From Rheinheimera sp. (lineage in GTDB: Bacteria > Pseudomonadota > Gammaproteobacteria > Enterobacterales > Alteromonadaceae): a stretch of DNA of 64,000 nt. The stretch is from positions 558,001 to 622,000 of the forward strand of contig NZ_JAUYGV010000006.1 in assembly GCF_030690345.1 (NCBI RefSeq), written 5' to 3'. Under the pieces are notes generated by a model, which saw nothing but the letters and a program-made list of their open reading frames with translations, was not told the DNA's origin and did no database searches. Both the position numbers and the translations under genes were made by a program. The stretch's first letter is position 1, and each line of letters begins with the position of its first letter. Shown here in pieces: positions 5,244 to 46,541 of the stretch.

Positions 5244-5400
5244 CTTGTTATCCTTATTCTCATTTTCGTTTAGTCTGATACAGGACAGCGGGCATCACCA
5301 TAGTACTAAGGTACAGGTTAAAAATTCTGCGTTTGCGCCTACAGTAAAGCCATACCAATAAAGACAAGATGATGTGACATCAAACAGCAGGAGAGCCAAG

Positions 5401-7716
5401 ATGGCCCATAACTATAATAGTGATACACAGCACAAGTTTAGCCGTAGCCTACTTAAACCCAGCCTTATCGCATTGGCCATCAGCAGCTGTTTTGCCGGTT
5501 CTGCGCTGGCGCAGGAACAAGCCAAAGACGCCGAAGCCGACGTAAAACTGGAACGGATTGAAGTAACCGCCCGCCGTACCATTGAAAACCTGCAGGAAGT
5601 ACCGGTAGCCGTAACCTCAATTGGTGCTGCCGATCTTGCCGAGCGTGGTATTTCAACCGTAGTGGAAATTCAGCAGTTTTCGCCCAATACCACCTTGCAG
5701 CAAAGCCGTGGCACTAACTCAACGCTGACCGCCTTTATCCGTGGTGTGGGTCAGGAAGATCCGTTATGGGGTTATGAGCCGGGTGTGGGTATTTATATTG
5801 ATGATGTATATGTAGCGCGGCCACAAGGCGCAGTACTGGACATCCTGAATGTCGAGCGGATAGAAGTACTGCGTGGTCCGCAAGGCACGCTGTATGGTAA
5901 AAATACTATAGGTGGCGCGGTTAAATACGTTACCAAAGAAATGAGCGGTGACACTGAGTTTGCGGTAAACCTGACAGCGGGCTCCTATAAACAGGGGGAT
6001 ATTAAAGCCACCGGTCAGATCCCGTTGATCGATAACCAGCTGTATCTGGGGTTTGGTTATGCCAACCTGCAACGCGATGGCTACGGTAAATTTCTGACAT
6101 CAGCCCTGAGCGGTCAGGATGGTGAAAACTACAACAAAGATATGCAGGCTTTTCGTCTGACGTTGGAATACCGCCCCTCCGACGATTTATTTTTCCGGCT
6201 GAACTACGATAAAACAGATGATAAATCTAACGCCAAAGGCGGCTATCGTTTATTACCCAGCTTATTAACTGATGCGCCGGTGCCGGACAGTGTGTTTGAT
6301 TCCTACACCAGTTTACCGACGTGGAATAAAGTAGAAACCGAAGGTTTAAGCCTGACGGCTAACTGGGACATTAACGATAACTGGACGTTTAAATCTATTA
6401 CCTCTCAGCGCGAAAGTTACTCGCCAACCAATATCGATTTTGATAATACTTCGTTGCAAATCTTTGATGTACCGGCTATTTACGATGACGAGCAGTTTAC
6501 CCAGGAATTCCAGCTAAATTACCAAACCGACGGCTTTAAAATGGTATCGGGCGCCTACTACTACACAGCAGATTCGTGCGGTGTGTTTGATGCCATATTG
6601 GGTGTACTGGGTCAGTCACTTGGCGCTCCGGGTTTAACCCGTGAAGTTGGCGGCTGCAGTAACGGCGACAGTACGGCGCTGTATGCCCAGGGTAGCTACG
6701 ATATTGACGACAAATGGTCAGTTACTGCAGGTTTACGTTACACCAAAGATGAAAAAGATGCGGTGGTGCGCAACGGCTTAATTTTTGACATTGTGTATCC
6801 GGAGTCCGGCTGGGTGCCGGGCTATGTGCGGCCGGATGGCTTAACCACACCGGTGGTGCTGGATGACAGCGAAAGTTGGTCTAAAGTGACGCCAAAGCTT
6901 GGTGTTGAATATCAGCACTCAAGTGATTTAATGGTATTTGCCAGCTATAGCCAGGGCTTTAAGTCCGGTACTTTTAACCCACGTGCGACAACTCCTGAAG
7001 AGGCTGCAGATCCGGAGAATGTTGATTCATTTGAAGTGGGTATCAAGAGCGATTGGAACGACCGTTTACGTGTTAATGCCACCTTGTTTATGTTGGATCA
7101 TAAAGACAGGCAGTATATTTCGATTATTCCGGATGAAAACGATGCCACTGCGTTAAACCAACGACTGGGCAACGTTGGCCGCTCGGACGCTACCGGCCTT
7201 GAACTCGAGGTAACCTGGAAAGCCAGCCGCGAACTGGAGATTTACGGTAACTTAGGTCTGATTGACGCTTCCTTTAAAGAGGTTGAAAGTCGTGATGCTG
7301 TAGGCAATGTTATTGATATTTCAGATGGTTTTACAATCACGAACACACCAGAAACCACTGCCAATATTGGCTTTAGCTACAATATGGTTTTTGACAGCGG
7401 CGATGTGATATTAAATGGTAACTACAATTATCGCAGTAGTTACGATTTGACAGAGCAAAGCAATCTGTTGACGCAGGACGGCTATGGTCTGCTGAACCTC
7501 GGTGTAACTTGGCTAAGTAATGACGGCCATTGGAGTATCGCGTTGCACGGTAAAAACCTGACCGATGAAGAGTACCTGGTGGGTAACTATGCCTTTATCG
7601 CGCCGGACCCGGCTAACCCCGGTCAGTTTATTCCGGGCCTGGGCGGCGACAATACTCTGATAGGCTATTATGGTGCGCCACGTACCGTAAGCCTGAGTGT
7701 TGGTTACCGTTTCTGA
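5401..7716 (+). CDS. TonB-dependent outer-membrane receptor
   Basis: The start is placed at 5401 (MAHNYN...) because AGGAGAG lies just upstream of that ATG. The track start at 5374 has no comparable site. The product of about 771 residues has a signal peptide ending near ALAQ, a TonB-box-like stretch (LERIEVTARR) and a plug domain with VERIEVLRGPQGTLYGKNTIGG. A 22-strand-type barrel follows and ends in the terminal aromatic SVGYRF. This is the iron-complex-receptor subfamily layout, but such proteins also import other ligands in Alteromonadales and Sphingomonadales. It is divergent from the GntP permease/hydrolase pair and 67 bp upstream of a LuxR-type regulator. The substrate is unknown. Confidence 0.92.
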   Translation: MAHNYNSDTQHKFSRSLLKPSLIALAISSCFAGSALAQEQAKDAEADVKLERIEVTARRTIENLQEVPVAVTSIGAADLAERGISTVVEIQQFSPNTTLQQSRGTNSTLTAFIRGVGQEDPLWGYEPGVGIYIDDVYVARPQGAVLDILNVERIEVLRGPQGTLYGKNTIGGAVKYVTKEMSGDTEFAVNLTAGSYKQGDIKATGQIPLIDNQLYLGFGYANLQRDGYGKFLTSALSGQDGENYNKDMQAFRLTLEYRPSDDLFFRLNYDKTDDKSNAKGGYRLLPSLLTDAPVPDSVFDSYTSLPTWNKVETEGLSLTANWDINDNWTFKSITSQRESYSPTNIDFDNTSLQIFDVPAIYDDEQFTQEFQLNYQTDGFKMVSGAYYYTADSCGVFDAILGVLGQSLGAPGLTREVGGCSNGDSTALYAQGSYDIDDKWSVTAGLRYTKDEKDAVVRNGLIFDIVYPESGWVPGYVRPDGLTTPVVLDDSESWSKVTPKLGVEYQHSSDLMVFASYSQGFKSGTFNPRATTPEEAADPENVDSFEVGIKSDWNDRLRVNATLFMLDHKDRQYISIIPDENDATALNQRLGNVGRSDATGLELEVTWKASRELEIYGNLGLIDASFKEVESRDAVGNVIDISDGFTITNTPETTANIGFSYNMVFDSGDVILNGNYNYRSSYDLTEQSNLLTQDGYGLLNLGVTWLSNDGHWSIALHGKNLTDEEYLVGNYAFIAPDPANPGQFIPGLGGDNTLIGYYGAPRTVSLSVGYRF

Positions 7717-7783: not shown

Positions 7784-8425
7784 ATGATTGCTTTAATTGC
7801 TGACGACCACCCGCTGTTTCGCGTAGCATTGTCTCAGGCCTGTGCCAATATTCTTGGCAGTGATGCCTTATTGCTGCAAGCGCAGAGTATGCAACAATTG
7901 TGGCCTTTGCTGCGCCAACACCCTGATACCAACTTTATTTTCCTCGATTTACGCATGCCCGGCAGTGATGGCTTTACCGGCCTCAGTGCCCTGCGCACCG
8001 AGTATCCCGACGTGCCGGTAATTATGGTGTCGGCTGAAGAAGACCCGGTCATTATCAAACAAGCGCTGACATTGGGCGCGGCGGCTTATATACCGAAATC
8101 GGCCCCGTTGGAGCTGTTATCGGAGGCGATCGCGGCGGTATTAAACGGTGACAGCTGGTTACCGCCGGCGCTGGAAGCTGATGTGCGTAACGCTAAGGCG
8201 TTGATTGACGACGATTTTGCCGGCCGGTTGGAGCAACTGACACCGCAGCAGTTTCGCGTATTAAAAATGATTGCCGATGGCCTGTTAAATAAGCAAATTG
8301 CTTACGAGATGAAAGTGCAGGAAACCACCATCAAGCAGCATGTGTCGGCGATCTTGCGCAAACTCAATGTGAATAACCGTACCTTAGCCGGTATTTTGTT
8401 TGAAAAACTCCGGCTGCCACAGTAG
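7784..8425 (+). CDS. LuxR/NarL-type response regulator (CrbR/ErdR-like)
   Basis: This 213-residue protein has an N-terminal receiver domain: acidic pocket ADDHP, phospho-acceptor Asp about 55 in FIFLDLRMPGSDG, and a conserved Lys in YIPKSAP. A C-terminal LuxR helix-turn-helix follows (LTPQQFRVLKMIADG through TIKQHVSAILRKLNVNNR). The lengthy AILNG...LPP linker and IAYEMKVQETTIKQHVSAILRKL resemble the AgmR/ErdR/CrbR group, which in other gammaproteobacteria is paired with SSF-type histidine kinases and controls acetate or alcohol metabolism genes. Such a kinase is encoded at 12594-16049, so the two may be partners. That pairing is inference from family and proximity only. No cognate kinase gene is directly adjacent. 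Confidence 0.85.
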   Translation: MIALIADDHPLFRVALSQACANILGSDALLLQAQSMQQLWPLLRQHPDTNFIFLDLRMPGSDGFTGLSALRTEYPDVPVIMVSAEEDPVIIKQALTLGAAAYIPKSAPLELLSEAIAAVLNGDSWLPPALEADVRNAKALIDDDFAGRLEQLTPQQFRVLKMIADGLLNKQIAYEMKVQETTIKQHVSAILRKLNVNNRTLAGILFEKLRLPQ

Positions 8426-8524
8426 CGTTGTTGCCTGATGACGCAGGGTATGCAGCCTTAAACGTCAGGCCATTTTACATTCATCTCCCGCTTTGCCTGG
8501 TTTTTCTAATTTAACTTCAATTAA

Positions 8525-8535
8525 AACAGCATGTT
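8525..8535. promoter_or_regulatory. Palindrome AACA-GCA-TGTT upstream of the cohesin/dockerin operon
   Basis: The 11-bp inverted repeat AACAGCATGTT lies 7 bases before the -24/-12-like element. A matching palindrome of the form RACA-GCA-TGTY (GACAGCATGTC) lies upstream of the other PEP-CTERM gene at 42636. Because the outer base pair differs in both arms together, the symmetry is kept. A shared activator site is an inference. Confidence 0.35.
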
Positions 8536-8542
8536 CTAATGT

Positions 8543-8558
8543 TGGCTTGTACTATGCA
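8543..8558 (+). promoter_or_regulatory. Putative sigma-54 (-24/-12) promoter of the cohesin/dockerin operon
   Basis: TGGCTTGTACTATGCA has the invariant GG and GC separated by exactly 10 bases and matches 9 of the 12 informative positions of TGGCACGNNNNTTGCW. The predicted start would be near 8569, about 67 bases before the first ATG. A near-identical element precedes the other PEP-CTERM gene. An alternative sigma-70 reading exists in the same stretch (TTGTAC, 17 bases, TGTTAT), so this is a hypothesis. Confidence 0.45.
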
Positions 8559-8635
8559 CTGCGCATGGTTGTTATATTCCCTGCATATTTAGGTGTGATG
8601 TGGGTTTCTGCTTGATAGCAAAGGAGAAGCTGGCA

Positions 8636-8989
8636 ATGAACAACCCTTATTTAATCCGGCGCGCTGGCGCCGCCATACTCAGTCTTATGTTGTTATTCAG
8701 TACCTTAGCAATTGCTGCGCCCAAAGCTGTGTTGTCCGGGCCATCGCAAGCTGTTGCCGGTGATATGGTAACGCTTAGCGGTAAGCACTTTACTGCCGGA
8801 GCCACCTTCACGGTGAAAACGCTGGTGGGTAAGCGCAGCAGCCAGGAGGTGGTTACTGCCGGCAGTGATGGAAGTTTGTCGTATCAACTGGTTACCGGCA
8901 ACGCCGGAACATACCAGCTACAGGTACGTGACAGCCGTAACAGGCTGGTCGCGACGTCAGTAGTGATGGTGCACCCGGCAGGAGGTTAG
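8636..8989 (+). CDS. Small secreted beta-rich protein, 117 aa
   Basis: The start is placed at 8636 (MNNPYLIRR) because AAGGAG lies 10 bases upstream. The track start at 8600 has no site. A signal peptide (to about ...LAIAAP) is followed by one roughly 85-residue domain of alternating hydrophobic residues (VLSGPSQAVAGDMVTLSG...). It looks like an Ig/IPT-like beta-sandwich such as those that mediate adhesion or act as accessory modules, but I cannot name a family with confidence. It is the first gene of a tight run: the next gene begins 3 bp after its stop and takes its ribosome-binding site from the end of this gene. Likely role: small periplasmic or secreted partner of the propeller proteins that follow. 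Confidence 0.75.
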   Translation: MNNPYLIRRAGAAILSLMLLFSTLAIAAPKAVLSGPSQAVAGDMVTLSGKHFTAGATFTVKTLVGKRSSQEVVTAGSDGSLSYQLVTGNAGTYQLQVRDSRNRLVATSVVMVHPAGG

Positions 8990-8992
8990 GCT

Positions 8993-10087
8993 ATGTCATT
9001 TTATCAAGATGCCGGCCTGATTACGCTGGTGTTGACGCTATGCTGTTGTGCAGCTGTTGCTGGCGGACCAAAGCCGGAGCTGGCGTTTGTGTCAATCCGC
9101 GACGGTAATGCGCACATTTACGTTACCCGTGGCGAGCAGCAACAAGCGCTGACCAGCGGTAACTCTGTCAACACTCAGCCGGCTTGGTCTGCCGATGGCA
9201 GCACTTTGGCATTCAGTTCGGTACGTGACGGCCAGTCGGCTATTTATCTGATTGGCGCGGATGGACAAAACCTGCGCCGGCTTAACTACAGCACACTGTG
9301 GCAAACGGCACCGTCCTGGTCGCCGGATGGCACGGCCATAGCTTTTCTGGCGCGGGATAACAGCAAAGCCGGGGTTGATCTGCATATAGTGCGGTTGTCT
9401 GATGCGGCGCTTACGGTGATCGGTGGCAATGCGCTGGAAAAAGGCCCGGATGCGCCGGTCTGGTCGGCAGACGGTAAACAATTGGCTTTTTTAGGTGCTA
9501 ATGACGCGGGTAAAGCCGATGTCTGGGTAGTGCAGCGTGATGGCAGCGGGCTGAAAAATATCAGCCAGCAGGTGTCAAAGCGGCATAAAGCGCACCCGGC
9601 TATTTCACCGGATGGCCGTTATGTGGTGTATGTGGCTGATATGCGCGGCCACCTGGCGCTGATCCGCACCGATTTACAAAGCGGCGAGTCAGTCAATTTA
9701 ACCGCCGATACACCTGCAGCCTACGAAACACCGCGTTGGTCTGCTGATGGCCGCCGGTTGGTGTTTGCCAGCAGCCGCGACGACCCGGGGTTAACGCGGA
9801 TGGATATTTTCCTGATGAATGCCGATGGTTCAGCAGTAACTAACCTGAGCCGGCACCCGCATGAGGATTTTAATCCGCATTGGGCGGCAGATGGTCAACG
9901 CATTATTTTTACCAGTTTGCGCAGCGGTACCGCACAAATTTTTGCCTACGATTTGGCGTCGCAACAGGCGATGCGGATCACTGACAACCAATCGCATGAT
10001 ATGGACCAGGTGCCTCAGCCTGCAGCAGTACGTGCTTTGCAAACTGCGGTATCGGTAACACAAGGAGACCTGTCGTATGAGAACTGA
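8993..10087 (+). CDS. TolB-like secreted beta-propeller protein (PD40 repeats)
   Basis: This 364-residue protein has an N-terminal hydrophobic signal region (LITLVLTLCCCAAVAGG) and at least six PD40/WD40-like repeats. Each carries the W-S-x-D-G-x-x-L/I-x-F core, as in PAWSADGSTLAFSS, PSWSPDGTAIAFL and PRWSADGRRLVFAS, so it should fold as a beta-propeller. It resembles TolB but lacks the TolB N-terminal domain and is not in a tol-pal operon, so it is not the Tol system protein. GGAGG precedes the ATG. Its last 11 bases overlap the start of the dockerin-bearing gene, which indicates translational coupling. It probably takes part in binding a protein or polymer at the cell surface. Confidence 0.85.
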   Translation: MSFYQDAGLITLVLTLCCCAAVAGGPKPELAFVSIRDGNAHIYVTRGEQQQALTSGNSVNTQPAWSADGSTLAFSSVRDGQSAIYLIGADGQNLRRLNYSTLWQTAPSWSPDGTAIAFLARDNSKAGVDLHIVRLSDAALTVIGGNALEKGPDAPVWSADGKQLAFLGANDAGKADVWVVQRDGSGLKNISQQVSKRHKAHPAISPDGRYVVYVADMRGHLALIRTDLQSGESVNLTADTPAAYETPRWSADGRRLVFASSRDDPGLTRMDIFLMNADGSAVTNLSRHPHEDFNPHWAADGQRIIFTSLRSGTAQIFAYDLASQQAMRITDNQSHDMDQVPQPAAVRALQTAVSVTQGDLSYEN

Positions 10088-11909
10088 ACCTATCAGCCCC
10101 CTTAAAAAGGGCCTGTTTTGCCAACTGATAATTGCGGCATTCTGTTGTTACAGCAATACAGCACTGGCGGCAGATAAAACCTATACCCTGGATGCGGACT
10201 TTGCGCTGGGTTTGCTCGATGGTGTGAACTACGATGCGCCCAACAGTGATCAGCTGCAGCTTAATGCTGTGGGTACGACTTTCCCGGTAGCCTGGATTGC
10301 TAACGCCGGTGAAGACACAGTGTCTAAGTTCGATACAAATTTGAATAAAGAGGTTGCGAGGTACCGCACCTGGTTTGGCCCGGCGGGGCAGGCCGGCTTT
10401 TATAATCACCTGGGCAATGCTTATGACGGTGCTGCACCTTCGCGCACTGCGGTTGATATTAATGGTAATGCCTATGTGCTGAACCGGCATTTTAGCCAGG
10501 GTGTCTCCAGCGCCGGTGTGGTGCTGAAAATTCTGGCCGAAGGTTTTATTGACCGCAATGGTAATGGCGTAATGGACACCTCGCAGGATAGCAATGATGA
10601 CGGCATTATCGACAGCAGTGAAATGCTGCCGCTGGCTGACAGCAATGGCAACGGCATCATCGATGACGCTGAAATTCAGGATGAGCGTATTGCCTGGGTA
10701 AAGCGGGTACCTGACGGGGTTGCTGCACCGCTGCGGCCCACCGGTGTGCTGGGGCGTGCCATGTGTATCGGTACTGACGGCAACCTTTGGGTGGGACTGT
10801 TTAATGACAGAACCTACTACAAAATCAGCTCAGCTGATGGCGCCACCATTACCGGGCCGGTGTCGACAGCGCCCGGCGCCGGCCAGCCTAATGCCGGCTC
10901 CTGGACGCCTTATGGTTGCCTGATTGATGCCAACGGCACTTTGTGGAGCGCGTCGTTGTCAGGCATCCTCGGCAAAATTACCAACACCCAAAGTGATACC
11001 GGCCCTTATACGGTGGCGTCTTTTTCCTCCGGTTTTAACTACGGTATAGGTTTAGGTAATGGCCGTGTGTATCTGGGCAGCTCTAACCAGCAGTTTGATC
11101 CCGCTACTAATACCTATTCTGCCATTACCAATATGACGGTTGGCAGTTCCGGTATCGTAGTTGACGGCAGTGGCAATATTATTGCCGGCAGTGCCACAGT
11201 GCGTAAAGTCGCGCCGGATGGCACTTTGCAATGGCAGGCACCGCTGCAGGCCGGCGGTAGCAGCTCAGTTGGTATCCAGGTTGATGCCAATAATGACGTA
11301 CTGCAAATCGGCTTTACCAGCGCCGGCCGCATTCAAAAATACCGTGGCACTGACGGCGCGCCACTCGGTGTATTCCCGGTGGGCAATATGCCTTACACCT
11401 ACAGTGATGCTACCGGGCTGGTGGCGCGCAATGTTACCAACCCTACCGGTACCTGGACTGTAGTGTATGACAGTGGCAGCAGTGGTACAGCCTGGGACAA
11501 TATCAACTGGAATGATCTGACACCGCCCGATACTGCAGTTCAGGTGTCGTACCGTACAGCAGAAACCGAAGCCGGTCTGGCGCTGGCGAGCTATCAGGCG
11601 ACGGCTAAGGGCGATACATTGACAGGTAGTGGCCGCTTTATTCAGGTGCAAAGCCGGCTTAACGGCAATGAACAGGGTGACACGCCGGTACTGTTTGATC
11701 TGACCATTAGTGCGGTTGATGCCGGTTGTGACGTTGATGGCAATGGCGCCACCGACTCTGCAGACGTATCGCTGGTGCGTGCGGGCATAGGTCAGACTCC
11801 GTTGCCCGGCGATGTCAGGGATCAGAACGGTGATGGCAAAATCACGGTAAATGATACCCGGTTATGTGCGTTGAAATGCAGCTTACCCCGCTGCGCCATT
11901 GCACCTTAA
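10077..11909 (+). CDS. Secreted propeller-like protein with EF-hand-type loops and C-terminal type-I dockerin
   Basis: The 610-residue product has a signal peptide (to about ALAADK). It then has NHL/SMP-30-like repeats, seen as recurring DxxGNxx(I/L)W/A elements such as GTDGNLWVG, DANGTLWSA and DGSGNIIAG. Residues about 159-202 insert three Asp/Asn-rich calcium-loop sequences (DRNGNGVMD, DSNDDGIID, DSNGNGIID). Residues about 551-600 form a dockerin: the two loops DVDGNGATDSAD and DQNGDGKITVND are about 30 residues apart, with helix segments VSLVRAG and TRLCALK. Cysteines flank the domain (551, 597, 601 and 606 approximately). GGAGACC precedes the ATG. A cohesin-like protein is encoded next, so the natural prediction is that the two bind each other outside the cytoplasm. 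Confidence 0.87.
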   Translation: MRTEPISPLKKGLFCQLIIAAFCCYSNTALAADKTYTLDADFALGLLDGVNYDAPNSDQLQLNAVGTTFPVAWIANAGEDTVSKFDTNLNKEVARYRTWFGPAGQAGFYNHLGNAYDGAAPSRTAVDINGNAYVLNRHFSQGVSSAGVVLKILAEGFIDRNGNGVMDTSQDSNDDGIIDSSEMLPLADSNGNGIIDDAEIQDERIAWVKRVPDGVAAPLRPTGVLGRAMCIGTDGNLWVGLFNDRTYYKISSADGATITGPVSTAPGAGQPNAGSWTPYGCLIDANGTLWSASLSGILGKITNTQSDTGPYTVASFSSGFNYGIGLGNGRVYLGSSNQQFDPATNTYSAITNMTVGSSGIVVDGSGNIIAGSATVRKVAPDGTLQWQAPLQAGGSSSVGIQVDANNDVLQIGFTSAGRIQKYRGTDGAPLGVFPVGNMPYTYSDATGLVARNVTNPTGTWTVVYDSGSSGTAWDNINWNDLTPPDTAVQVSYRTAETEAGLALASYQATAKGDTLTGSGRFIQVQSRLNGNEQGDTPVLFDLTISAVDAGCDVDGNGATDSADVSLVRAGIGQTPLPGDVRDQNGDGKITVNDTRLCALKCSLPRCAIAP

Positions 11910-11942
11910 ACCGGGTTTTAACATAAATAGAAGGATACTGTT

Positions 11943-12557
11943 ATGAGTAAGTTTCTGATGTCTGTTTTGTTGGCATTGTTATTGGCCGCTGTGCCGGCAA
12001 AAGCAGCAATGATTTACCTGTCACCGGCCCAGCAACAGGTGGCCGTGGCTGATACGCTGTCGCTGGATGTGTTTGTGTCCGGTCTGGCCGGAGAAATTGT
12101 CTCAGGTTGGGATTTGAATTTGCTGTTCGACAACAACATTTTGCAGGCGACGGATGTGTTTTTTGATCTGGCAAACTTTACTGAAGATCCGATATTGGAT
12201 GCTATATATGATGCCACTATTACCGGTGGGGAAATAAGCAGTTTTCTGGTGTCGTTTCTGACCGATGCGGAGCTGGCGCTAAAACAGACCGAGCCGGTAA
12301 GGCTGTTTTCAATCAGTTTTCTGGCGCTGACCGATGGCGTTAGTTTGGTGAACTTTGGCACAGACCCGGATTTTGCGCTTAATGTAGTCGGGCGTGATGG
12401 GGTCAGTTTGGATCTGGTAGCACGTGGTGCTTGTATCGGCGTGGGGCAAGGCCAGTGTGTGGTAACAGATGTTCCGGCACCGGCAACCTTGTGGCTGTTT
12501 GCCCTGGCTGCAATGTTACCGCTGAGCCGGCGGTTCAGGCTAACAGGCAACAGCTAA
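11943..12557 (+). CDS. Cohesin-like domain protein with PEP-CTERM sorting signal
   Basis: This 204-residue protein has a signal peptide (...VPAKA). The domain of about 140 residues starts IYLSPAQQQVAVADTLSLDVFVSGLA and continues GWDLNLLFDNNILQATDV. This is the pattern of cohesin and cohesin-like modules (early strand, then W/F-DL-x-Y/F-D-x-x-x-L). The C-terminus VPAPATLWLFALAAMLPLSRR is a PEP-CTERM-type tail: Pro-rich motif, hydrophobic helix, then basic residues. Such tails are cut by exosortase for surface release or attachment. No exosortase gene is in the window. It is the last gene of the operon, 33 bp after the dockerin gene (AGAAGGATACTG precedes the ATG). It probably serves as the surface anchor for the dockerin partner. 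Confidence 0.85.
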   Translation: MSKFLMSVLLALLLAAVPAKAAMIYLSPAQQQVAVADTLSLDVFVSGLAGEIVSGWDLNLLFDNNILQATDVFFDLANFTEDPILDAIYDATITGGEISSFLVSFLTDAELALKQTEPVRLFSISFLALTDGVSLVNFGTDPDFALNVVGRDGVSLDLVARGACIGVGQGQCVVTDVPAPATLWLFALAAMLPLSRRFRLTGNS

Positions 12558-42635: not shown

Positions 42636-43175
42636 ATGTTGAAGTCTATTCTTATCGCCCTGTCTGTACTGATGCTCAGCGCTGTCACCTTGTCACAGCC
42701 GGCACAGGCAGGCCCTATACTGACTCAGGAGTTTTTGGCCGAAGATACTAACGGCAACACTATTTCTATCGGCGCTATCAGTTTTGACACTGACGACCTT
42801 GATGAATGGTTCCCGGGCACCGGCGACTTGCTGGCGTGGGAAAGTTTCACCTTGTTCGGCTATGAAATTGATACCAGCTTTTTCTTTGTCAGCCTCGGCT
42901 TTAATCCGGATAACATTTTTGCCGGACTGGAGTATATCAACTTTGATGTTACCGATATCGACATGACCATCGCCTTTCAGGGCTTTTTCGATCTGAATAA
43001 CTCAGGCCTGCCGGCTGAATACACTACTTTTGATTTCGCTACAGGCGAGTTCACAGTATTCGCTAATTTCGCACCCGGCCGCGTCTCTGCAGTATCGGCG
43101 CCGGCTACTATTTGGCTGTTGTTTGCTGCAGCCGGTGGCTTGCTATTGCGTCAGCGTCGTCATAACGCGGCTTAA
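42636..43175 (+). CDS. PEP-CTERM surface protein of unknown function
   Basis: The 179-residue protein has a signal peptide (MLKSILIALSVLMLSAVTLSQPAQA), an acidic aromatic-rich beta-type central domain (no Cys, many Asp/Phe) and a C-terminal PEP-CTERM tail. The tail is VSAPATIWLLFAAAGGLLLRQRR: Pro-containing motif, hydrophobic helix and Arg-rich end. The tail closely resembles that of the cohesin-like protein at 11943 (shared APAT-W-LF core), so both are probably handled by the same exosortase, encoded elsewhere. AAGAGGTAATCC precedes the ATG. The central domain is not one I recognise. It lies alone between the tdh terminator and an S8 protease gene. Confidence 0.83.
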   Translation: MLKSILIALSVLMLSAVTLSQPAQAGPILTQEFLAEDTNGNTISIGAISFDTDDLDEWFPGTGDLLAWESFTLFGYEIDTSFFFVSLGFNPDNIFAGLEYINFDVTDIDMTIAFQGFFDLNNSGLPAEYTTFDFATGEFTVFANFAPGRVSAVSAPATIWLLFAAAGGLLLRQRRHNAA

Positions 43176-43439
43176 ATCGGGATTGTCAGTTTTCTTTGCA
43201 AAAGGCCGGGCGATATACAAACCAGACTTATGCGCAGCGTCAAAGCTACGCTGTGTTTAGCTGCGCTCCCTGCTGTTTTTGCTAAACAATTGACTGTCCA
43301 AATTTTATACAGTTGTTGCCGGTGTGTTTACCCAACAACAAAGATATTACGGCTATATACATCGCTACAGCATGAGTTGGGCGGTTCCCGTAGTTACTTC
43401 TGTTGCACAGCGAGCTATAACAATAAACGGAGACATCAG

Positions 43440-46400
43440 ATGCAATTTAACAAATTTATGTCCAGAACAGCCTGTGCAGTAGCGCTGGCTGTTGGCGGGG
43501 TCCACGCCGATACGATGGCCAATAATTATCAGATAGAAGTTGACCGTTCTGCGCTGCAACAAGCCGGTGAAGACAGCGCTGCAGTGCCCTATATCGTGCA
43601 GGTTAAGGGTAAAAGTGGCGTGGAGAAAGCTGAGGAGTTTGGCGAATTATTGCCGGCGGCACAATCTGTCACTGTTGGCCTGAACCGCTACAATGCAGCT
43701 TCAGCACGTATGCTCAGTTACACCAATGGGTTAAAACATTTTCATCAACAGTTAGCTGCGCAAAATGGTAGCGGCAAGCTGCTTTACTCCTACACCCACA
43801 CTTTTAACGGTTTCTCGGCGAAAATGACACCCGCTCAGGCCGAGGCGCTGCGTAACCATCCCAATGTAGCCGGCGTCTGGCGCGATGAAGCTCAGCAACT
43901 GACGACGTCAAATACACCGGCTTTTCTTGGTTTGACTACGGGGCCGGATGGTCTGCATGTGCAGGGTGTTAAAGGGGAAGGTGTGGTTATAGGGGTAGTA
44001 GACAGCGGCATTTGGCCGGAACACCCTAGTTTTGCTGATGATGGCTCTTACGCGCCTTTAGCCGGCTGGGCCGGTACTTGCGACAGCGGTGAAGATGCCG
44101 ATTTTAGTTGTAACAATAAACTGATTGGTGCCCGCTATTATAAAGAGTCATTTGAAAGCGCATATCAGTTACAACCCGGCGAGTTTGTCTCGCCACGGGA
44201 TGCCGATAACCACGGCACTCATGTGGCCTCAACTGCAGGCGGCAACGAGGGCGTAACGGCGGTATTTAACGGTACTGAAGTAGCAACCGTGTCCGGTATA
44301 GCACCGCGTGCCCGCATTGCTATGTATAAAGCCTGCTGGAACAGCAGTTACACCAACCCGCAGGGCCAGCCGGAACGTGGCTGTTTTGGCGGTGATACTA
44401 TGGCGGCGATTGATCAGGCGGTAGCAGATGGCGTCGATGTAATTAACTATTCTATCAGCGGTAGCTTAACTAATATCACCACGCCGCAAGCTGCGGCAAA
44501 ACTACGCGCGGCTCAGGCCGGTGTCTTTGTTGCGGTATCTGCCGGCAATAACGGGCCGACAGCAAGTACTATAGGCACGCCGGCTCCCTGGGTCACAACA
44601 GTAGCCGCGTCAACTTATAGCGGCACCAGTATTGCCAATGGTTTGGAGGTTCTGGGCGGCCCTTTACAGGGAGTATATCAGGCTGTAGAAGGTGGCACTT
44701 CCGTACCGTTGAGTGAAGTGGGCGAGATTACTGCAGATGTGGCAGTAGCATCTCCGCTTGAAGCCTGTGAGCCGCTGGATAATGCGGCTGAACTGGCTGG
44801 TAAATTTGCCCTGATACAGCGTGGTACCTGTAGCTTTGATATCAAGCTGGGTAATGCGCAAGCGGCCGGTGCAGCCGGTGTTATCGTATACAACAACTCA
44901 GCAGCAGCACCGAGCACTATGGGAGGCACAGCCAGCTTTAACATACCGTCCGTAATGACCACTCTGGCAGCCGGCAGCGCTTTTAATGCAGAGGTAACAG
45001 CAGGTGGTGTGGTGACAGTAAAACTCAGCCCGTCGGTGTTCGTTGACGATGTGGTTGAAGTGGGTAACCTGATGGCCGGTTTCTCCTCCCGCGGCCCTAA
45101 CCTGAATACATTAGATATTATTAAACCGGATATTACTGCGCCCGGGGTGAAAATCCTCGCTGGTGCCTCTGCACAGACAATGTTTGGTACACCAGGTACC
45201 AGCTTTACCTACCTGCAGGGCACGTCTATGTCGAGCCCGCACATTGCCGGTATTGCGGCGCTGGTTAAAGAGGTGAACCCGGGTTGGTCTGCGGCAATGA
45301 TTAAATCTGCCATTATGACTACCGCCCGACAAAACCTGACCAAAGAAAATGGTTTAACTGCTGCAGATCCGTTTGATTTTGGCGCCGGCCATGCTGTACC
45401 TAACAGTGCGGTTAATCCGGGTTTAACTTACCCTATTTCCAACTTAGAGTATTTCGCCTTCTTGTGTGGTGTCGGTGAGGCTGCCTTCGTGCAAACTGCC
45501 AGTGGTTTTTCCTGCGCCGCCTTTGTTAACGCAGGGTACAGCACTGATGCCAGCCAGTTAAACCTGCCGTCTATGGCGATTGCTGAGTTATCGGAGCAGG
45601 AAACGCTGCAACGCCGTGTGATGAATGTCAGTGGTTCTGCTTCTGTTTATACCGCCAGCATTGAAGCGCCTGCCGGTGTGAATGTGTCAGTGGTTACCAA
45701 TGACGGTGGCAATACCTTGTCGGTACCGGCAAATGCTACAGTACCTTACAGCCTGATTTTTACACCAACGCAAAGCGCAGTGATGAACCAGTGGGTGTTT
45801 GGTGCTATTACCTGGTCTGATGGTGTGCACAGTGTACGTAGTCCTATTGCCGTAAAAGTAGTGCCGCCAAAATTAATTCTGGCGCCGGCTGAGGTTAATG
45901 CTTCGGTAGCCGCCAAAGGTGGCCGTGTCAGCTTCCCGGTAACAATGAACTACAGCGGTTTAACCAGCACCACTATGGCCGGGCTTACAGCGCCATTTGG
46001 TTCATCTGGTGTAGTAGCGCAAGACGCCGACAGTACTTTTGCCTTTAACGAACCAGGCTTGGGCTTCCATACTTTCCTGATACCGGAAGGTACCCGCATG
46101 GTGCGTTTCAGCTTGTATGAAGAGTTAACCGATGTACCCGGAGCAGATCTGGATATGTTTGTTTATCGTTGTATTGCTCTGTCTTGCACTGCGGTAGGTT
46201 CTTCTGCCAGAGAAGGTGGTTATGAAGAGGTAAGCTTACGTGACCCTGCGCCGGCAGCCGATGGCGCAGCCGGTGACTTCTATCTGGTGTTTGTACATGG
46301 CTATTCGTTGTTTGGCGCAGAGCAGGCCAATTACACCATGCCGGTATGGGTAGTAAACGGCAATGAAGGTAACAGCCGCGTAGCCGCCAGCATGCGGGCA

Positions 46401-46541
46401 ATAGCCGGCCGGCCGAGCAATGTCACCTTGATCACCACCGGGCTTACCGCCAGCCCGTTCCCGTATCTTGGTGTGATGTCATTTAATGACGCCGATGGTA
46501 ATGAACAGGCAACCAGCTTGCTGGAAATTATTGCTAATTAA
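43440..46541 (+). CDS. Secreted S8 (subtilisin/cucumisin-like) serine protease with PA domain
   Basis: The start is placed at 43440 (MQFNKFMSR), preceded by GGAGACATCAG. The 70-residue in-frame extension in the track has no ribosome-binding site. The 1033-residue product has a signal peptide to about residue 23 and an I9 inhibitor/propeptide domain (about 48-152). The S8 domain has Asp188 (GVVDSGIWPEHPSF), His258 (DADNHGTHVAS), oxyanion Asn370 (SAGNNGP) and Ser596 (LQGTSMSSPHIAG). A protease-associated (PA) insert lies at about 435-530. A fibronectin-like domain (about 690-790) and a C-terminal beta domain follow. This layout is like plant cucumisins and Alteromonadales exoproteases and predicts extracellular protein digestion. 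A terminator follows. Confidence 0.93.
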   Translation: MQFNKFMSRTACAVALAVGGVHADTMANNYQIEVDRSALQQAGEDSAAVPYIVQVKGKSGVEKAEEFGELLPAAQSVTVGLNRYNAASARMLSYTNGLKHFHQQLAAQNGSGKLLYSYTHTFNGFSAKMTPAQAEALRNHPNVAGVWRDEAQQLTTSNTPAFLGLTTGPDGLHVQGVKGEGVVIGVVDSGIWPEHPSFADDGSYAPLAGWAGTCDSGEDADFSCNNKLIGARYYKESFESAYQLQPGEFVSPRDADNHGTHVASTAGGNEGVTAVFNGTEVATVSGIAPRARIAMYKACWNSSYTNPQGQPERGCFGGDTMAAIDQAVADGVDVINYSISGSLTNITTPQAAAKLRAAQAGVFVAVSAGNNGPTASTIGTPAPWVTTVAASTYSGTSIANGLEVLGGPLQGVYQAVEGGTSVPLSEVGEITADVAVASPLEACEPLDNAAELAGKFALIQRGTCSFDIKLGNAQAAGAAGVIVYNNSAAAPSTMGGTASFNIPSVMTTLAAGSAFNAEVTAGGVVTVKLSPSVFVDDVVEVGNLMAGFSSRGPNLNTLDIIKPDITAPGVKILAGASAQTMFGTPGTSFTYLQGTSMSSPHIAGIAALVKEVNPGWSAAMIKSAIMTTARQNLTKENGLTAADPFDFGAGHAVPNSAVNPGLTYPISNLEYFAFLCGVGEAAFVQTASGFSCAAFVNAGYSTDASQLNLPSMAIAELSEQETLQRRVMNVSGSASVYTASIEAPAGVNVSVVTNDGGNTLSVPANATVPYSLIFTPTQSAVMNQWVFGAITWSDGVHSVRSPIAVKVVPPKLILAPAEVNASVAAKGGRVSFPVTMNYSGLTSTTMAGLTAPFGSSGVVAQDADSTFAFNEPGLGFHTFLIPEGTRMVRFSLYEELTDVPGADLDMFVYRCIALSCTAVGSSAREGGYEEVSLRDPAPAADGAAGDFYLVFVHGYSLFGAEQANYTMPVWVVNGNEGNSRVAASMRAIAGRPSNVTLITTGLTASPFPYLGVMSFNDADGNEQATSLLEIIAN

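Follow-up and report, generated by a model that had tools for sequence, protein, structure and literature searches.

A locus of Rheinheimera sp. raises the question of whether a secreted protein with a dockerin can be held at a Gram-negative surface by a cohesin that is itself an exosortase substrate. How Gram-negative bacteria retain their secreted DNases and proteases is poorly known, as is what exosortase substrates do. The locus lies in a 64,000-nucleotide stretch of DNA, which is called the window here. We consider it likely that an exosortase-processed receptor with a single cohesin tethers dockerin-tagged secreted proteins to the cell surface or to exopolysaccharide; the binding, the calcium requirement, the exosortase cleavage and the location are inferred.

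The four-gene operon and its dockerin and cohesin domains

Four genes follow one another on the + strand of the window; the first two are 3 nt apart, the second and third overlap by 11 nt, and 33 nt separate the third from the fourth. A signal-peptide-like (Sec-type) segment is present at the start of all four products. The preliminary description had claimed four secreted proteins encoded head to tail with short or overlapping junctions, and this held for the coordinates, the junctions and the signal-like segments; the gene set is thus shown by computation. The features are as follows.

8636..8989, + strand: small secreted beta/Ig-like protein, 117 aa, gene 1 of the conserved four-gene set (sequence)
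8993..10087, + strand: exported TolB-like PD40 beta-propeller, 364 aa (PF07676, 1.6e-45, 6 stretches)
10077..11909, + strand: secreted beta-propeller protein (P0003), 610 aa, with a Ca-loop-rich insert and a C-terminal dockerin
10545..10688, + strand: aspartate-rich insert (EF-hand / thrombospondin-3-like) within the propeller, residues 157-204 (sequence; conserved in the propeller-family alignment)
11715..11906, + strand: type-I-like dockerin, residues 547-610, with the tail C...C.LPRCA (PF00404 at 552-593; alignment; PDB profile; AlphaFold)
11730..11765, + strand: dockerin calcium loop 1, D552-D563, DVDGNGATDSAD (D552, D560 and D563 invariant in both the dockerin and the propeller-family alignments)
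11820..11855, + strand: dockerin calcium loop 2, D582-D593, DQNGDGKITVND (D582 and D593 invariant in the dockerin alignment)
11943..12557, + strand: single-cohesin protein (P0004), 204 aa, with a signal peptide and a PEP-CTERM-like tail
12006..12452, + strand: cohesin domain, residues 22-170 (AlphaFold pLDDT 93-98 nearly throughout; Foldseek)
12468..12539, + strand: PEP-CTERM-like sorting tail, residues 176-199, VPAP...LLPLSRRFR (PF07589 16.9 bits, below cut-off)

The C-terminus of the 10077-11909 product is a two-loop type-I dockerin, as had been claimed. Both loops consist of 12 residues with Asp at positions 1 and 12, and each is followed by a helix. In the AlphaFold model, the dockerin part contains two helices (model residues 15-23 and 45-53) with pLDDT mostly 90-98. 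As a single sequence, the window dockerin scored 18.5 bits against Pfam PF00404 (cut-off 22.9 bits), and the cut-off was passed by dockerins of relatives (32.5 bits in L042 and 25.7 bits in L109). The top PDB match of the family profile was a solved cellulosomal dockerin (2y3n_B, 2.4e-7). The two-loop pattern is present in 54/54 propeller dockerins, and the C...C.LPRCA tail is lineage-specific. Loading with calcium and calcium-dependent binding to the cohesin are inferred, and no calcium data are available. In some relatives (L040, L041, L044, L105 and L107), it is the N-terminus of a large secreted protein (the longest has 2185 aa) that carries the dockerin, and the cohesin gene is then upstream, not downstream.

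The 11943-12557 product had been described as cohesin-like, and a structure prediction without a cohesin fold would have refuted this. As a single sequence, P0004 matched no cohesin model, and a search against the PDB returned only signal-peptide noise; therefore, a family profile was built from a 13-member alignment. About 20 of the 24 PDB matches of the profile were cohesins (best 3l8q, 4.4e-6). Pfam Cohesin (PF00963) was matched by 5/13 family members with a best value of 4.3e-4, P0004 not being among them. When the AlphaFold model of the domain was compared with the PDB by Foldseek, every one of the 50 best matches was a cohesin, with E values down to 1.2e-10 and a target TM reaching 0.80; they include the non-cellulosomal cohesin of Archaeoglobus fulgidus (2xdh). 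The gene thus encodes a true cohesin fold, as shown by the predicted model together with the family profile. The receptors examined have about 170-250 aa and one cohesin each. The claim of a PEP-CTERM tail held only in part. The tripartite layout of motif, TM helix and basic cluster is present, but the motif reads VPAP, and PEP-CTERM models gave 12-17 bits, under their cut-offs. The tail of some orthologues contains VPEP, and PF07589 was matched by 9/13 family members.

The dockerin and cohesin genes share a reading frame; therefore, the natural read-through, with the stops read as residues, was folded as one chain. The alignment was modest (58 rows), and the chain was folded with 20 paired rows from other loci. 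The linked model had a pTM of 0.84 and a pLDDT of 89.6, with disorder limited to the linker (67-84). By our own estimate, a dockerin placed randomly against a cohesin of about 150 residues would give a pTM of about 0.6-0.65; therefore, the relative placement of the two domains looks confident by computation. This fits a defined dockerin-cohesin contact, which remains a prediction of the model without PAE, a mismatched-pair control or binding data.

Pairing of dockerin and partner genes in relatives

Searching GTDB species genomes with the propeller family yielded 68 named loci in addition to the window. Every propeller with a dockerin (54/54) has a neighbouring PEP-CTERM partner gene, which encodes a cohesin (class A) in 43 loci and a protein of another family, class B, in 11. 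The partner falls within a 4-kb rule for 53 of these, and in the 54th (L208) the cohesin is located 2.2 kb upstream. In contrast, no PEP-CTERM partner accompanies any of the 16 family members that lack a dockerin, which come from Chloroflexi, Planctomycetes, archaea and others (Fisher 7e-15 for partner presence versus dockerin presence). The preliminary description would have been refuted by loss of the pair in relatives keeping either gene, and it passes this check with the reservation that the partner is not always a cohesin. Genetic pairing is thus shown by computation, and its conservation excludes chance.

Pairing is not restricted to propellers. A scan of 395 genomes of the order (about 4 Mb each) found 42 dockerin places and 28 cohesin places, and for 25/28 cohesins a dockerin gene was no more than about 4 kb away. 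The passengers in the order are mostly unrelated proteins, and 33 dockerin-cohesin pairs have non-propeller passengers. Among the 45 passengers scanned, ExeM/NucH extracellular DNases (19) and endonuclease I (8) are accompanied by M4, M9, M36 and M43 metalloproteases, porphyranase-type domains, vWA, PASTA and PKD proteins, with few glycosidases. The earlier view of a self-contained pair of one operon was therefore too narrow; the module is found again and again with a wide range of passengers, DNases and proteases being frequent among them.

Across the order, about 12 dockerin genes lack a cohesin gene next to them. The order-wide scan detected no cohesin in G173, G188, G287, G048 and G333, and several genomes with orphan dockerins (G040, G045, G371 and G405) have a cohesin elsewhere. 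G040 (L113, L130, L133, L138 and L143) encodes four dockerin proteins without an adjacent cohesin and one unlinked PEP-CTERM cohesin, which suggests that one cohesin may possibly serve several dockerin proteins in some genomes.

Cohesin distances and dockerin distances are correlated, with a Mantel r of 0.72 for 74 pairs and 0.33 for the 33 non-propeller pairs (p 0.0005 each). For 20/33 of the latter, the nearest dockerin was among the three nearest cohesins (3.1 expected), and paralogue matching inside genomes was 8:4 only. Species relatedness accounts for part of the Mantel correlation. The dockerin and partner genes are usually adjacent; therefore, another part of the covariation could be due to joint transfer of linked DNA.

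In its extreme form, this objection holds that the dockerin and the partner gene are a linked recombination cassette and that they co-occur by linkage, not function. In favour of this explanation, the dockerin end is usually about 150 nt or less from the partner gene, and the cohesin gene is upstream where the dockerin is N-terminal. However, the pair is kept in L039, L045, L108, L125, L181 and L208, although the dockerin is at the gene end far from the cohesin gene. The orphan dockerins with a cohesin elsewhere in the genome also argue against it, and linkage leaves the co-distribution with exosortase described below unexplained. We regard the cassette explanation as very unlikely and retain a functional pairing.

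The other members of the operon are less constant. Homologues of the 8636-8989 product, for which the family-model scan gave no family above cut-off, are present in 32/54 dockerin-propeller units, and the TolB-like propeller has a counterpart in 47/54. The relative of this propeller in L038 has a lipobox-like SIAGC. The four-gene set was found in Burkholderiales and Rhodocyclales too, and in L153 and L157 (Burkholderiales) the TolB-propeller-cohesin unit is duplicated in tandem. A search of viral contigs with P0004 and P0007 found no relatives. On the 5' side of the operon are a TonB-dependent receptor gene (5374-7716, +) and then a NarL-type response regulator gene (7784-8425). A TonB-dependent receptor gene adjoins 20/52 dockerin-propeller loci, for example at 8464-10536 (-) in L188 and 8357-10474 (-) in L192. 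Those beside the operon in Alteromonadales relatives are of one family, and the receptor of the window differs from it. These neighbours hint at nutrient capture by the window's propeller, which is no more than a guess; the ligand itself has not been identified.

Class B, a second partner family

Class B is a PEP-CTERM family of about 240 aa that is unrelated to cohesin. It is found beside 11 dockerin propellers and, in the order set, in L037; the loci are L152, L161, L164, L165, L167, L168, L172, L173, L176, L184, L205 and L037. The idea that every PEP-CTERM neighbour is a cohesin was rejected because the 11 class B loci gave no cohesin match by profile or fold. In the fold comparison with cohesins, no likeness was observed (query TM ≤0.34 among the listed hits), with a moderate model quality (2/5 models good). 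The AlphaFold model is weakly lectin/CBM-like.

The partner class changes seven times on the propeller tree, and at least five of these changes are forced by well-supported branches. A Pro motif in dockerin loop 2, I[TDN]P.D[VI], is present in 11/11 class B dockerins and in 0/43 class A dockerins. The switch in this motif holds in 5/5 independent pairs (p 0.06 by the sign test, the lowest value that five pairs allow). Partner class can be predicted from the nearest dockerin in 54/54 loci, compared with 34/54 from the nearest propeller. The loop-2 trait was picked after the sequences had been seen, and joint transfer of adjacent DNA could possibly produce this pattern as well.

Direct binding between dockerin and cohesin is inferred; it is supported by the linked model, by the correlated distances and by the fact that dockerin subtype and partner class switch together. 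Alternatively, the proteins could be co-expressed surface components that do not bind each other, with the cohesin-fold protein binding a glycan or another partner and the dockerin acting as a calcium-stabilised end cap. Cohesins share the fold of carbohydrate-binding beta-sandwiches, and the non-cohesin, weakly lectin-like partner in 11 loci would also suit this explanation. However, dockerin presence predicts the partner on the same propeller, the pairing recurs on unrelated passengers, and the pTM of the linked pair is high. The explanation without binding is therefore unlikely, and we prefer docking. A bolder reading, which we consider less likely than not, is that these dockerins have two kinds of exosortase-anchored receptor, the class A cohesin and a class B beta-sandwich that is neither a cohesin nor related to one, that the dockerin surface is re-tuned at each receptor switch, and that the whole module is a general tag-and-receptor system retaining secreted enzymes at Gram-negative surfaces.

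Exosortase, proposed tethering and known systems

All cohesin genomes (20/20) and nearly all dockerin genomes (25/26) encode an exosortase, compared with 82/395 genomes of the order overall; the exosortase link is thus shown by computation. The sole dockerin genome without one, G048, also lacks a detected cohesin. The window's genome has exosortase A (XrtA, 303 bits) inside an EPS cluster with PEP-CTERM-system glycosyltransferases, FemAB and a ligase, and it encodes at least eight further PEP-CTERM proteins. A second small exported protein in the window (42636-43175, +) has a PEP-CTERM-like tail, VSAPATIWLL...RQRR (TIGR02595, 21.6 bits), and its gene directly precedes that of a subtilisin-like protease (43230-46541, +), which is large and secreted and has no dockerin. 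A role of the module as a substitute in genomes without rhombosortase was rejected because rhombosortase is present in 26/26 dockerin genomes.

In the proposed mechanism, the 11943 product would be exported via its signal peptide as a single-cohesin receptor, and its C-terminal PEP-CTERM-like tail would make it a substrate for processing by exosortase A. The processed receptor would stay on the outer surface or on the exopolysaccharide made by the same gene system. In Aquincola, the PEP-CTERM protein PepA shifted exopolysaccharide from the soluble to the bound form and altered floc formation (PMC9850573); therefore, the exopolysaccharide matrix is a likely attachment site. The 10077 product would be secreted separately, and its calcium-loaded dockerin would clip into the cohesin, so that the propeller remains with the cell and does not diffuse away. 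Relatives would reuse the module for other large secreted proteins, chiefly extracellular DNases and proteases. The preliminary claim that the two products bind each other at the surface is supported by the model and the pairing but is still an inference, as are the exosortase cleavage and the attachment place. The VPAP tail below cut-offs, the non-cohesin partner in 11/54 loci, the orphan dockerins and the weak paralogue matching are points against tethering.

Another possibility is that the dockerin binds the cohesin in the periplasm and that the pair helps the passenger through export, folding or quality control ahead of exosortase processing, instead of displaying it lastingly at the surface. 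All parts have Sec-type signal segments, there is no localisation evidence, and the role of exosortase processing has been little tested. However, the passengers are typical extracellular enzymes, their ExeM relatives bear another sorting tail, GlyGly-CTERM (PMC3237569), and the effect of PepA on bound exopolysaccharide and flocs also argues against it. We consider a periplasmic role unlikely and favour tethering outside the cell.

The module shares with the clostridial cellulosome the cohesin fold, the two-loop dockerin and the tag-and-receptor logic for secreted enzymes. Clostridial scaffoldins carry type-I cohesins, whereas here each receptor has one cohesin, and no multi-cohesin scaffoldin was seen. 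The receptor also lacks a cellulose-binding module, the host is Gram-negative, and an exosortase tail replaces SLH or sortase. Plant-polysaccharide hydrolases do not predominate among the passengers, which are mostly DNases, proteases and propellers. Cohesins and dockerins outside cellulosomes are known in archaea and elsewhere (PMC9012536, PMC5244752). The archaeal ones (A. fulgidus, ANME) are likewise not for cellulose and possibly attach to the surface; however, the anchors named are S-layer domains, archaeosortase signals are discussed separately, and the relevant sections describe no one-to-one pairing of genes that is conserved and includes a sorting tail (PMC9012536, PMC5244752). The GlyGly-CTERM/rhombosortase system places a C-terminal tag on the same kinds of enzymes, extracellular nucleases and proteases, but there the enzyme's own tail is processed (PMC3237569), whereas here the enzyme bears a dockerin and the sorting tail is on a separate receptor. 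The sorting tail, XrtA and the exopolysaccharide gene cluster are common to the PEP-CTERM/exosortase A system, whose proteins are described as substrates themselves (PMC1569441); in the present case, the prediction is that the substrate serves a second protein as its docking receptor. The possibly new part is an exosortase-anchored single cohesin paired with a dockerin-tagged secreted protein, a use that we did not find described. Our search of the open-access literature found no report joining PEP-CTERM and dockerin, and subscription journals were mostly not covered; therefore, novelty is not proven.

Both domains of the pair are small and soluble, and together they would provide an orthogonal cohesin-dockerin pair for displaying proteins on the surface of Gram-negative hosts. 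The class B switch is a natural experiment on the change of dockerin specificity, and if the bolder reading is true, class B would be a non-cohesin dockerin receptor. If tethering is true, it would account for the role of dockerins outside cellulosomes, and PEP-CTERM proteins would acquire a definite function, that of a docking receptor, through a cohesin that is itself processed by exosortase.
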